From positions 62,001 through 126,000 of the forward strand of contig PXUA01000003.1 of assembly GCA_003022435.1 (NCBI GenBank): a stretch of 64,000 bases of DNA, read 5' to 3'. This stretch comes from Bacteroidetes bacterium SW_9_63_38 (GTDB lineage Bacteria > Bacteroidota > Rhodothermia > Rhodothermales > Salinibacteraceae). A program made the position numbers and the translations under genes. Below are positions 14,166-62,919 of this stretch, piece by piece; positions within the stretch are counted from its first letter, which is position 1, and every line of letters starts with the position of its first letter. The notes under the pieces were generated by a model that ran no database searches, was not told the DNA's origin, and saw only the letters and a program-made list of their open reading frames with translations.

Positions 14166-14246
14166 GGCGAAGGGTGAGGGGCGAAGGGTGAGGGGCGAAG
14201 GGTGAGAGGCGAAGGGTGAGAGGCGAGAAGCGAGGGGCGAGCAGGG
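14166..14246 (+). repeat. 14-bp tandem repeat GGCGAAGGGTGAGG
   Basis: About 5.8 head-to-tail units of GGCGAAGGGTGAGG/A. The first four are nearly identical and the last two have drifted. An inverted single copy of the same word lies at 14731-14760, so the four-helix-bundle gene sits between opposed repeats. Confidence 0.9.
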
Positions 14247-14333
14247 AGGGGAGCGACGGATGACGTTAAGAATTATGGAGGTGATGTGTCTGTGTTTACA
14301 CGCTGGGCTCAGACACTTTCACGGGGCAACGTC

Positions 14334-14714
14334 ATGGGACAGATCAACTCATTTCGGGAGTTGAAGGTGTATCAGAAATCGACTCAGCATGCGAAGTCGA
14401 TTTACGAATGGTCTCTCCAGCTTCCAAAAGAGGAGCGGTACGGATTGTCGTCGCAGGTCCGTCGGTCGTCGCGAGCCGTCGGGGCGCTTATCGCCGAGGC
14501 GTGGGCACGTCGTCGGTACGAGGGAGCATTCACCGAGAAACTCACACAGGCACTTGCCGAAGCAAAAGAAACGCAGTCGTGGCTCGATCACGCACGTGCC
14601 TGCGGATACTTGGAAGACGAACAGTTTGCAGAGTTCGACGATGCCTGGGATCACGTGTGCGCAATGGTTCGGCGTATGATTCAGCGTGCCGACCGATTCT
14701 GCGACACCGCGTGA
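14334..14714 (+). CDS. Four-helix-bundle protein (S23 / 23S rRNA intervening-sequence family)
   Basis: 126 aa from ATG 14334 (MGQINSFRELKVYQKS). The pattern F-R-E-L-K-V-Y-Q, then LSSQVRRSSRAVGALIAEA, then TQALAEAKETQSWLDHA is typical of the small four-helix-bundle family first seen in rRNA intervening sequences and related to the bAvd protein of diversity-generating retroelements. The family's cellular function is unknown; a nucleic-acid-binding pentamer is inferred for relatives. Here it is not inside rRNA. It lies between inverted copies of a GGCGAAGGGTGAGG-type repeat, suggesting it moved in with them. Confidence 0.88.
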   Translation: MGQINSFRELKVYQKSTQHAKSIYEWSLQLPKEERYGLSSQVRRSSRAVGALIAEAWARRRYEGAFTEKLTQALAEAKETQSWLDHARACGYLEDEQFAEFDDAWDHVCAMVRRMIQRADRFCDTA

Positions 14715-14730
14715 TAGGAGGTGACGACCG

Positions 14731-14760
14731 TCTCGCCTTTCACCCTTCTCCCCTCGCCCC
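14731..14760 (-). repeat. Inverted copy of the 14-bp repeat word
   Basis: Read on the minus strand this is GGGGCGAGGGGAGAAGGGTG followed by AAAGGCGAGA, the same word family as 14166-14246 in opposite orientation. The last codons and TGA stop of rlmD lie in it (…GARGEG-stop). Confidence 0.75.
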
Positions 14761-21010: not shown

Positions 21011-21012
21011 CA

Positions 21013-21112
21013 CTGGCGAATTGCGAATGTCGAGTTTCGAGTGATTCGTCGCTCGGCATCTCGCCTCGTTGGTCGTAATCCGAACTTCGAAACTCGCAAT
21101 TCGACACTGACC
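21013..21112. repeat. Inverted word repeat between cysD and cysNC
   Basis: The left part GCGAATTGCGAATGTCGAG (plus TTTCGAGT) and the right part, read backwards as GTGTCGAATTGCGAGTTTCG, share the same 6-8-base words. The gap can therefore fold into an imperfect hairpin of about 25 bp arms. Similar 'GAATTGCGAGTTTCG' words appear near 4755. Confidence 0.6.
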
Positions 21113-40583: not shown

Positions 40584-40659
40584 TGGCAACTTTCCGATTC
40601 CGCTTCGTTCATCGGGGAATGGCGCGTTCGCCTTCGCTCGCCCAGCGTGCCGCTATCGC

Positions 40660-40755
40660 GTGGAGGCACGGGAGCGTGGAGGCATGGAAGCGTGGAGGCA
40701 TGGAAGCGTGGAGGCATGGAAGCGTGGAGGCATGGAAGCGTGGAGGCATGGATGC
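40660..40755 (+). repeat. 16-bp tandem repeat, six units
   Basis: Unit GTGGAGGCATGGAAGC repeated six times exactly end to end; the first unit has two substitutions and the last one, and the four middle units are identical. A short inverted counterpart (CCATGCGTCCAGAGCCTCCA) follows at about 40770. It lies between the 3' ends of the flavoprotein and regulator genes, which converge here. Confidence 0.95.
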
Positions 40756-40859
40756 AATACGTCGTTGCGTCCATGCGTCCAGAGCCTCCACGCATTCATT
40801 TAGAAGCCGAAGGCACCGCTGGAGACAGGCGTGACCTACGGGCGCCGCTTCGACGGACG

Positions 40860-45677: not shown

Positions 45678-45760
45678 AGCGTGAGCCGTGACGCGTGCGG
45701 GAGCCTGGACCGGTCCTTCACGCATCACGAAATCACGCATCACGAAATCACGTCTCACGG
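45671..45760. repeat. Inverted 'CACGCATCACGAAAT' word repeat
   Basis: Right side: CACGCATCACGAAAT occurs twice in tandem at 45720-45750, then CACGTCTCACGG. Left side: GCGTGAAGCGTGAGCCGTGA, the same words in reverse orientation (45673-45695). They can pair across a short loop in the gap between the GNAT and AIR-synthase-like genes. Confidence 0.65.
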
Positions 45761-47962: not shown

Positions 47963-48079
47963 ATTCGGGTATGTAGGTTTGTAAGTAAGTACGTGGTACA
48001 CACGTAGATACTTTCACACCCACACCCCGATTCGGAACGAGTTCCGATTAGTCGGGACTACGCACCTACATACCCGAAT
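47963..48079. repeat. Cruciform-like structured repeat
   Basis: A perfect 16-bp inverted repeat, ATTCGGGTATGTAGGT (47963-47978) and ACCTACATACCCGAAT (48064-48079), encloses two smaller hairpins: TACGTG-gtaca-CACGTA (47990-48006) and CCCGATTCGGAAC-ga-GTTCCGATTAGTCGGG (48026-48056). Folded, it gives a stem with two side arms. It lies 73 bp after the GvpU-like gene. It could be a structured RNA, a bidirectional terminator or an element end; there is no clear T-run. Confidence 0.7.
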
Positions 48080-59845: not shown

Positions 59846-60172
59846 CGGGGTCGCCCGTGGCCGTCGAGACCGACGCGACTGCTGCTCCCGTGTGGGATGT
59901 CTGAAGCGTGTGTGGGTATGTGCGTGTTTTATACAAGGCGTGTGGGAGTATGGGAGTGTGTGAGTTTGGGAGAGGGTTGACTTCTGCTTGGATTGCTTCG
60001 TTCACGCGTCACGCTGTCACGCATCACTGGTCGTCGGGCCGAATGTCCCCGCTGTTTGAATGGAGAATGGGGGAGGCCGTGCCTGTGGAGCAAGTCTTGA
60101 TGCCGCTCGTTTTCGGGGACGGGCGGCTTTATTGTTGTACCCTACTCGCAATTCGATACTCGGATCTCGCCA
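59846..60172. repeat. Gap with GTGTGGGAGTATGGGAG words
   Basis: About 327 bp before mutS2. The part 59890-59977 is made of irregular GTGTGGGAGT/ATGGGAGTGT words; 'CACGCGTCACGCTGTCACGC' follows near 60003. The same GTGGGAGTATGGGA word recurs at 62761 just after mutS2, so the gene lies between two copies. No gene seen. Confidence 0.6.
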
Positions 60173-62659: not shown

Positions 62660-62760
62660 TGCAGCTTCAACTGGTCCGTTGTGCAATCGAGATCCCTCAA
62701 GCTGGAGCGTGGAGCAATAGCAAACTGCCTTCCCCAAAAGATCGTTTGAAGCTACATTAG
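62656..62760 (+). mobile_element. MITE-1 copy 4 (97 bp, internally deleted, TTAG duplication)
   Basis: The element 62660-62756 has the left end TGCAGCTTCAA and right end TTGAAGCTACA (one mismatch), flanked by TTAG. Compared with the other copies it lacks about 23 bp covering the GGACGGAC hairpin. The left TTAG contains the mutS2 stop codon. Confidence 0.88.
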
Positions 62761-62830
62761 TGTGGGAGTATGGGACTTTGGGAGCAGAACTGTCATGCTC
62801 CCATACCCCCACACGCCCAAACTCCCATAC
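62761..62830. repeat. Inverted GTGGGAGTATGGGA words
   Basis: Left: TGTGGGAGTATGGGACTTTG with GGAGCA. Right: TGCTCCCATACCCCCACACG and CCCAAACTCCCATAC, the same words in reverse. They can fold into a hairpin of roughly 20-bp imperfect arms in the gap between MITE-1 copy 4 and the dehydrogenase gene. Confidence 0.65.
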
Positions 62831-62919
62831 GCAGCAGTTGGAGGAACCGCGGCGTAGTTTGTAGCTTCGGCACGGCTTGCACGACTGCATTTTCTCAGAC
62901 AGAACACGCTGCACGACTC

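Follow-up and report, generated by a model that had tools for sequence, protein, structure and literature searches.

Does the small gene between an epimerase gene and rlmD form a mobile unit with the mirror-image repeats on either side of it, as the original prediction proposed? The window, meaning the whole stretch of DNA that was analysed, comprises 64,000 nt of contig PXUA01000003.1 from Bacteroidetes bacterium SW_9_63_38. The gene belongs to the IVP/S23 ("23S intervening sequence") family, a very common bacterial gene family whose function is unexplained and for which structures have been solved since 2006.

The gene occupies 14334..14714 on the plus strand and encodes 126 aa, counted from ATG 14334, where orthologs start (GTG 14286 is not the conserved start). 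Its predicted membership in the four-helix/S23 family was confirmed by profile matches to PF05635 (E-value 2.4e-28, 98.9 bits against a curated cut-off of 33.8) and TIGR02436 (E-value 4.9e-26, 91.1 bits against a curated cut-off of 24). The AF2 model (pLDDT 96) was matched by Foldseek to the four-helix bundle of 2gsc and 2rld (TM 0.74-0.85; five chains in each entry) and also to Avd (4dwl, TM about 0.77), to which sequence similarity is weak. Apart from PF05635, the profile search of the window protein returned only a weak bAvd match and no Y1/HUH tyrosine transposase. Residues L10, Q41, R44, N52, A54, E55 and E79 are almost invariant in the family; to our knowledge they form no known nuclease site, and we know of no catalytic site in IVP/S23 proteins.

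Upstream of the gene, at 14166..14249 on the plus strand, lies the 5' arm, a C-poor heptad array (GGCGAAG GGTGAGG) with four good 14-mers followed by degenerate ones: GGCGAAGGGTGAGG stands in tandem at 14166-14221, in two exact copies and two with one mismatch, and decays as far as 14249. TRF also reads the array with period 7 (10.9 copies), and the match count of the 14-mer was equalled in none of 100 shuffles of the window. The 3' arm (14731..14759, minus strand) starts 16 nt beyond the IVP stop codon (14712-14714) and is an imperfect inverted copy of 14200-14228, complementary at 86-89% over 27-29 nt; a minus-strand search of the window found no copy with two or fewer mismatches to the 14-mer. 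The two arms score 39 against each other, a value reached by none of 2000 shuffles (maximum 33), and no other piece of the rest of the window scores above 29 against the array. RNA folding predicts that 90% of the bases in the 3' arm are paired with the 5' array. The predicted array upstream and inverted copy downstream are thus both present, with two corrections: the array ends 84 nt from the gene instead of 88, because the conserved start is ATG 14334, and the copy is imperfect. The downstream copy does, as proposed, supply the end of rlmD: the C-terminal codons and stop (14740..14760, minus strand), reading GARGEG* with the stop TGA at 14740-14742, fall within the 3' arm. The ten window genes scanned around the unit include transketolase, NAD-dependent epimerase, rlmD, response regulator and UDP-sugar enzyme genes; no transposase was found among these ten, nor did the genes scanned near the unit include a reverse transcriptase.

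The same bracket recurs throughout the window genome, where ten IVP matches at nine loci were found and eight or all nine of these loci lie within inverted, mostly C-poor repeats (two were read by eye, their arms lying outside the automatic search window). Two features go beyond the original prediction: the basic repeat unit is 7 bp, and the word differs at nearly every locus (GTGTGGGAG, GGAAGCATGGAGGCG, GGCGAAGGGTGAGG, GCGTTGAGCGTTATG, GCGTATTTCGTATTG, TTCGAGT and others in the window genome). Bracketed IVP genes were also found across the genus and the class, in 80 named contigs from Bacteroidota, Acidobacteria, Nitrospirota, Desulfobacterota, Gemmataceae and a Clostridia bin, and in further multi-copy genomes and cyanobacterial plasmids.

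To put numbers on this, we assembled a survey set of 187 non-identical IVP genes from many phyla and called flanks complementary at an inverted score of at least 30. This score was reached by 54% of the genes, compared with 1.6% when the downstream flank was taken from another IVP gene and 12.8% for the same genes in direct orientation, which bears out the prediction that IVP genes are generally flanked by inverted repeats; about a third have no clear arms within 350 nt. On the same contigs, 58% of 74 IVP genes and 2.1% of 722 non-IVP ORFs were bracketed, and 7 of the eleven IVP genes that had entered the control ORFs by accident scored above 30. Flank swaps, shuffles and control genes together rule out a chance origin of the bracket.

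Among the best-scoring remaining controls were three further genes with inverted arms or repeats. One is a RAYT/Y1 transposase gene flanked by inverted, REP-like arms (L102:15179-15754), a known system that served as an unplanned positive control. Another is a GxxExxY/PDDEXK_3 nuclease gene (PF13366; L169:1091-1471) whose inverted arms, ACCACAGAGACACAGAGGGCACAGAGA, are of the same kind as those of IVP genes, and this family may be a second gene-plus-repeat unit. The third is a DUF559 (VSR-like) nuclease gene inside 90-nt inverted repeats, CTCCCCTTGAGGGGAG (L122:2702-3079). On two cyanobacterial plasmids (L175 and L367), IVP genes lie within CRISPR-Cas operons, inserted between cas6 and cas4 (type I-D) and between cas10/cmr2 and cmr3 (type III-B). 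Searches for phage carriage among 50,697 phage records and for defence systems with PADLOC gave no match.

The arms share a common anatomy. Identity along an arm is about 0.55 at lags 7 and 14 and about 0.26 at most other lags, and the best lag is 7 in 63 of 89 cases and 8 in 18. C makes up 8.7% of the 5' arm, against 21.6% in the distal flank taken as background, and the 5' arm holds more G than C in 105 units and more C than G in 6. The 3' arm follows the stop codon at a median distance of 15 nt. Avoidance of C by the 5' arm and of G by the 3' arm leaves each with a weak self-fold and lets it pair with the other arm. Of the 5' arm bases, 78% are paired with the 3' arm in predicted transcripts, and 17% once the 3' arm has been shuffled. 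A minority of units carry direct arrays or two-sided hairpin arrays instead, and the IVP unit upstream of pheT (L007, G000:C2:24397) has a second, nested repeat, GGATTCCCAGGATTCAGAATCTCC, between the gene and the outer arm.

We then compared word and protein among 113 units with clear arms, after removing pairs that share related flanking DNA. Word similarity rises with protein identity (Mantel r, Spearman, 0.197; permutation standard deviation 0.049; none of 500 permutations as high). Nearly the same word was shared by 62% of non-syntenic pairs at 70-80% protein identity (a bin of only 8 pairs), 15% at 60-70%, 2.5% at 50-60% and less than 1% below 50% (0.3% at 30-40%), a monotonic trend, and by none of 19 pairs from the same genome but different clades. 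Since similarity rises with identity and same-genome units of different clades do not share words, the word follows the protein rather than the genome. This strongly supports the original proposal that the protein and the repeats belong together. The idea that the arms are a genome-wide compositional habit was rejected, as the word varies from locus to locus within a genome and goes with the protein. One word is common to different phyla: GGCACAGAGG flanks IVP genes in a Desulfobacteraceae contig (L153) and a Nitrospirae contig (L168), and also the nuclease gene of L169.

Arrays also occur without a gene, and many of the gene-less hairpins dispersed in the genome have words of resident IVP units. 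We searched 0.85 Mb of the window genome (G000) and 0.70 Mb of a second genome (G006), both sampled as stretches, and found 143 gene-less arrays in the former against 23 in block-shuffled DNA. When 250 nt on each side of every gene-less array were searched, a complementary arm was found 3' of 18 arrays (15 in G000 and 3 in G006, some hairpins being counted twice, once per arm) and 5' of none, the polarity seen in the units. Four such hairpins lie inside the window, and three of them carry words of resident IVP units: 62760..62832 has the word GTGTGGGAGTATGGG of the trpS-trpG unit L002 (RNA fold z -5.75), 40658..40796 the word GGAAGCGTGGAGGCAT of unit L003 (RNA fold z -6.66) and 21012..21108 the word TTCGAGT/TTGCGAA of unit L007; the fourth, at 47963..48079, has a perfect outer stem of 16 bp (ATTCGGGTATGTAGGT/ACCTACATACCCGAAT). 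A solo array of the GTGTGGGAG word lies upstream of mutS2 at 59905..59977 on the plus strand. The prediction that the repeats are specific to the gene therefore stood in part: ordinary genes are unbracketed, but the same word recurs in gene-less arrays elsewhere, a recurrence that fits REPIN-like dispersal.

How closely these gene-less copies follow their units was assessed in two ways. A comparison of the gene-less arrays of G000 and G006 with resident units or those of the other species gave a Fisher p of 0.058, which is suggestive only. GTGTGGGMGTRTGGG, the word of L002, was counted 9 times in G000, 16 in G010, 3 in G007 and 3 in G008, whereas nine further genomes have no copy. The L002 protein was compared with Salinibacter IVP proteins covering part of the IVP genes of all the genomes; relatives with an identity of 60% or more come from exactly G000, G007, G008 and G010, a match of word and genome to which shared ancestry may contribute. 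The gap that holds the hairpin at 62760-62832 is hairpin-free in most species, and G008 has a different hairpin of the same word there. Another repeat, about 100 bp long (CCGGAATGAACGGACGCGTGGAGGCATGGAGGCA..GCTGTGC..AGAGCAAGATGCAATTG), is dispersed in G000, with about 20 copies in 0.85 Mb (e.g. L306, L304, L311 and L320); it contains an octad word resembling that of unit L003. The 55 copies of GACGCGTGGAGGCATGGAGGCA in G000 were not used as evidence because many belong to this separate repeat.

Fixed gaps between conserved genes were then compared between species. Among the Salinibacter genomes, rlmD was found in five, and each of these has the unit in the rlmD-epimerase gap; in one of them (G003:C123, L090), a transposon-associated gene, TnpB-like by eye, lies between the IVP gene and rlmD. 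In the trpS-trpG gap, G000 and G010 have an intact unit, G007 one with stops, and G003, G004 and G012 a decayed one; G001, G005 and G006 lack it. At leuC-leuD the word is GCGTATT in G000 and GTGATGC in G006, and the arms score 28 and 33 with their own partners against 18 and 16 when crossed. A solo array at 45718-45752 of the window, tandem TCACGCATCACGAAA, is the complement of this GTGATGC word. In the rlmD and trpG gaps, own arms outscore crossed arms for G000 but not in every species, so that only some cases clearly show the two arms changing together. As for the predicted mobility, presence, absence and decay at fixed gaps and the dispersed hairpins speak for it; no transposition event was found, and neither a target-site duplication nor an exact border was placed in the trpS-trpG and mutS2 gaps, where filled and empty species are too diverged to align. 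Units such as that in the rlmD gap, found in five species, are sometimes old and stationary, which also fits a fixed, maintained locus.

Because the mirror-image arrays match the type of protein between them, the gene and its repeats have the look of a single small mobile element, one that would also scatter gene-less hairpins through the genome. The reading we favour, with a probability of about 0.6, is that of a REPIN/RAYT-like unit of gene and cognate repeat, built on an Avd-fold protein and not on a tyrosine transposase. The window unit would then be one of a large class, each with a C-poor heptad array, a single IVP gene and a complementary array, in which IVP protein and heptad word form a cognate pair, like RAYT transposases and REP sequences. 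Such units and their gene-less hairpins of the same word would have spread into many intergenic sites, with a characteristic kind of word retained in each protein clade. The likeliest mechanism would be that an Avd-like oligomer binds its word as a single strand or hairpin, either in DNA or in the RNA of a read-through transcript, and helps host enzymes to copy or insert the unit with its hairpin ends. Since the nearly invariant residues include no recognised nuclease site, we propose that the protein would be a specificity and chaperone factor for the heptad hairpin, with the chemistry left to the host. In transcripts the arms could form a long stem around the gene, as in RNase III-excised 23S rRNA intervening sequences, and excision of this stem could make insertion among operon genes tolerable.

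Pairing of the arms in predicted RNA is also what would be expected of an immobile RNA-processing device, in which selection keeps the arms complementary because RNase III cleavage of the stem releases the IVP mRNA or insulates neighbouring genes, and spread reflects ordinary horizontal transfer and duplication. The matching arms that orthologous units keep despite a change of word, as at leuC-leuD, agree with such a device, as does the S23-ORF intervening sequence of 23S rRNA, which has a 28-bp terminal stem that RNase III cuts (PMC4990558). It leaves unexplained the gene-less hairpins with words of resident units and the match of word to clade at unrelated sites, and we consider it unlikely.

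A passive origin, with heptad minisatellites arising by replication slippage and inversion and IVP genes as passengers that prefer arrays or hairpins, would suit the slippage-made appearance of the arrays, the excess of gene-less arrays over shuffled DNA and the location of the Coxiella IVP element in a 23S rRNA helix (PMC4990558). Insertion into pre-existing arrays, however, predicts neither that word and protein clade go together in different genomes nor that the C-poor arm strictly comes first, and this origin seems rather improbable. Least probable of all, in our judgement, is that another resident enzyme (e.g. RAYT/Y1 or a GxxExxY PDDEXK nuclease) moves the hairpins and the IVP gene is cargo or a regulator: RAYT and GxxExxY genes with inverted arms did turn up among the controls, but the diversity of words tracks the IVP clade, and no transposase was found in the units examined or among the ten window genes scanned.

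If the REPIN/RAYT-like reading is true, it would give the IVP/S23 family of unknown function its first functional frame, connect it with the heptad repeats that are widespread in intergenic DNA, supply many natural pairs of protein and word for testing how an Avd-fold protein reads nucleic acid and help explain the related ORFs within 23S rRNA stems. More tentatively, and at somewhat less than even odds, IVP/S23 genes may lie at the centre of a new class of selfish elements with hairpin ends. Here a protein resembling Avd would recognise a heptad word that evolves fast and would spread both the unit and gene-less hairpins without a transposase of its own, perhaps via an RNA or single-stranded DNA intermediate; this class would be one source of the heptameric intergenic repeats long known in cyanobacteria, Xanthomonas and other bacteria. 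Such heptamers, GGGAATC in Xanthomonas and GGGGA(C/T)T in Nostoc, have been described as G-quadruplex repeats (PMC4692102). Like the IVP arms, they form C-poor arrays of period 7 and convergent inverted pairs, about 70 of the latter for GGGAATC in X. campestris (PMC4692102), a species that also carries the IVP gene XCC0516 (PDB 2gsc). The main text of that paper mentions no S23 and draws no link between the heptads and an IVP gene; in open-access full texts we found no report tying IVP/S23 genes to heptad arms, and an earlier description may exist elsewhere.

Among known systems, the 23S rRNA intervening sequences of Coxiella and Leptospira place an ORF of the same family inside a long inverted-repeat stem, and such elements have earlier been hypothesised to be mobile (PMC4990558). 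Units of the window type differ in lying between protein genes (here the epimerase gene and rlmD, and not an rRNA gene), in their tandem heptad arms and in having gene-less copies; by analogy, they look like the intervening-sequence principle at work outside rRNA. With Avd of the diversity-generating retroelements (4dwl, 8ub7), IVP proteins have the fold in common. Avd, going by the title of entry 8ub7, works within a reverse-transcriptase ribonucleoprotein, and those retroelements carry a reverse transcriptase beside avd, in contrast to the scanned neighbours of the window unit. The closest parallel in organisation is REPIN/RAYT (Bertels and Rainey 2011, PMC3116915). Both have a resident gene flanked by its own repeat type, hairpin-forming inverted doublets dispersed in intergenic space and several gene/repeat types per genome; in the IVP case gene-less doublets are likewise dispersed, and their match to a cognate gene is suggestive by one comparison and exact, though confounded by ancestry, by the other. 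The two differ in their parts (PMC3116915): RAYT is a tyrosine transposase of the Y1 type and the REP words are short palindromes, whereas the IVP protein is a four-helix bundle without known catalysis and its arms are degenerate, non-palindromic heptads with a weak self-fold and a fast-changing word.
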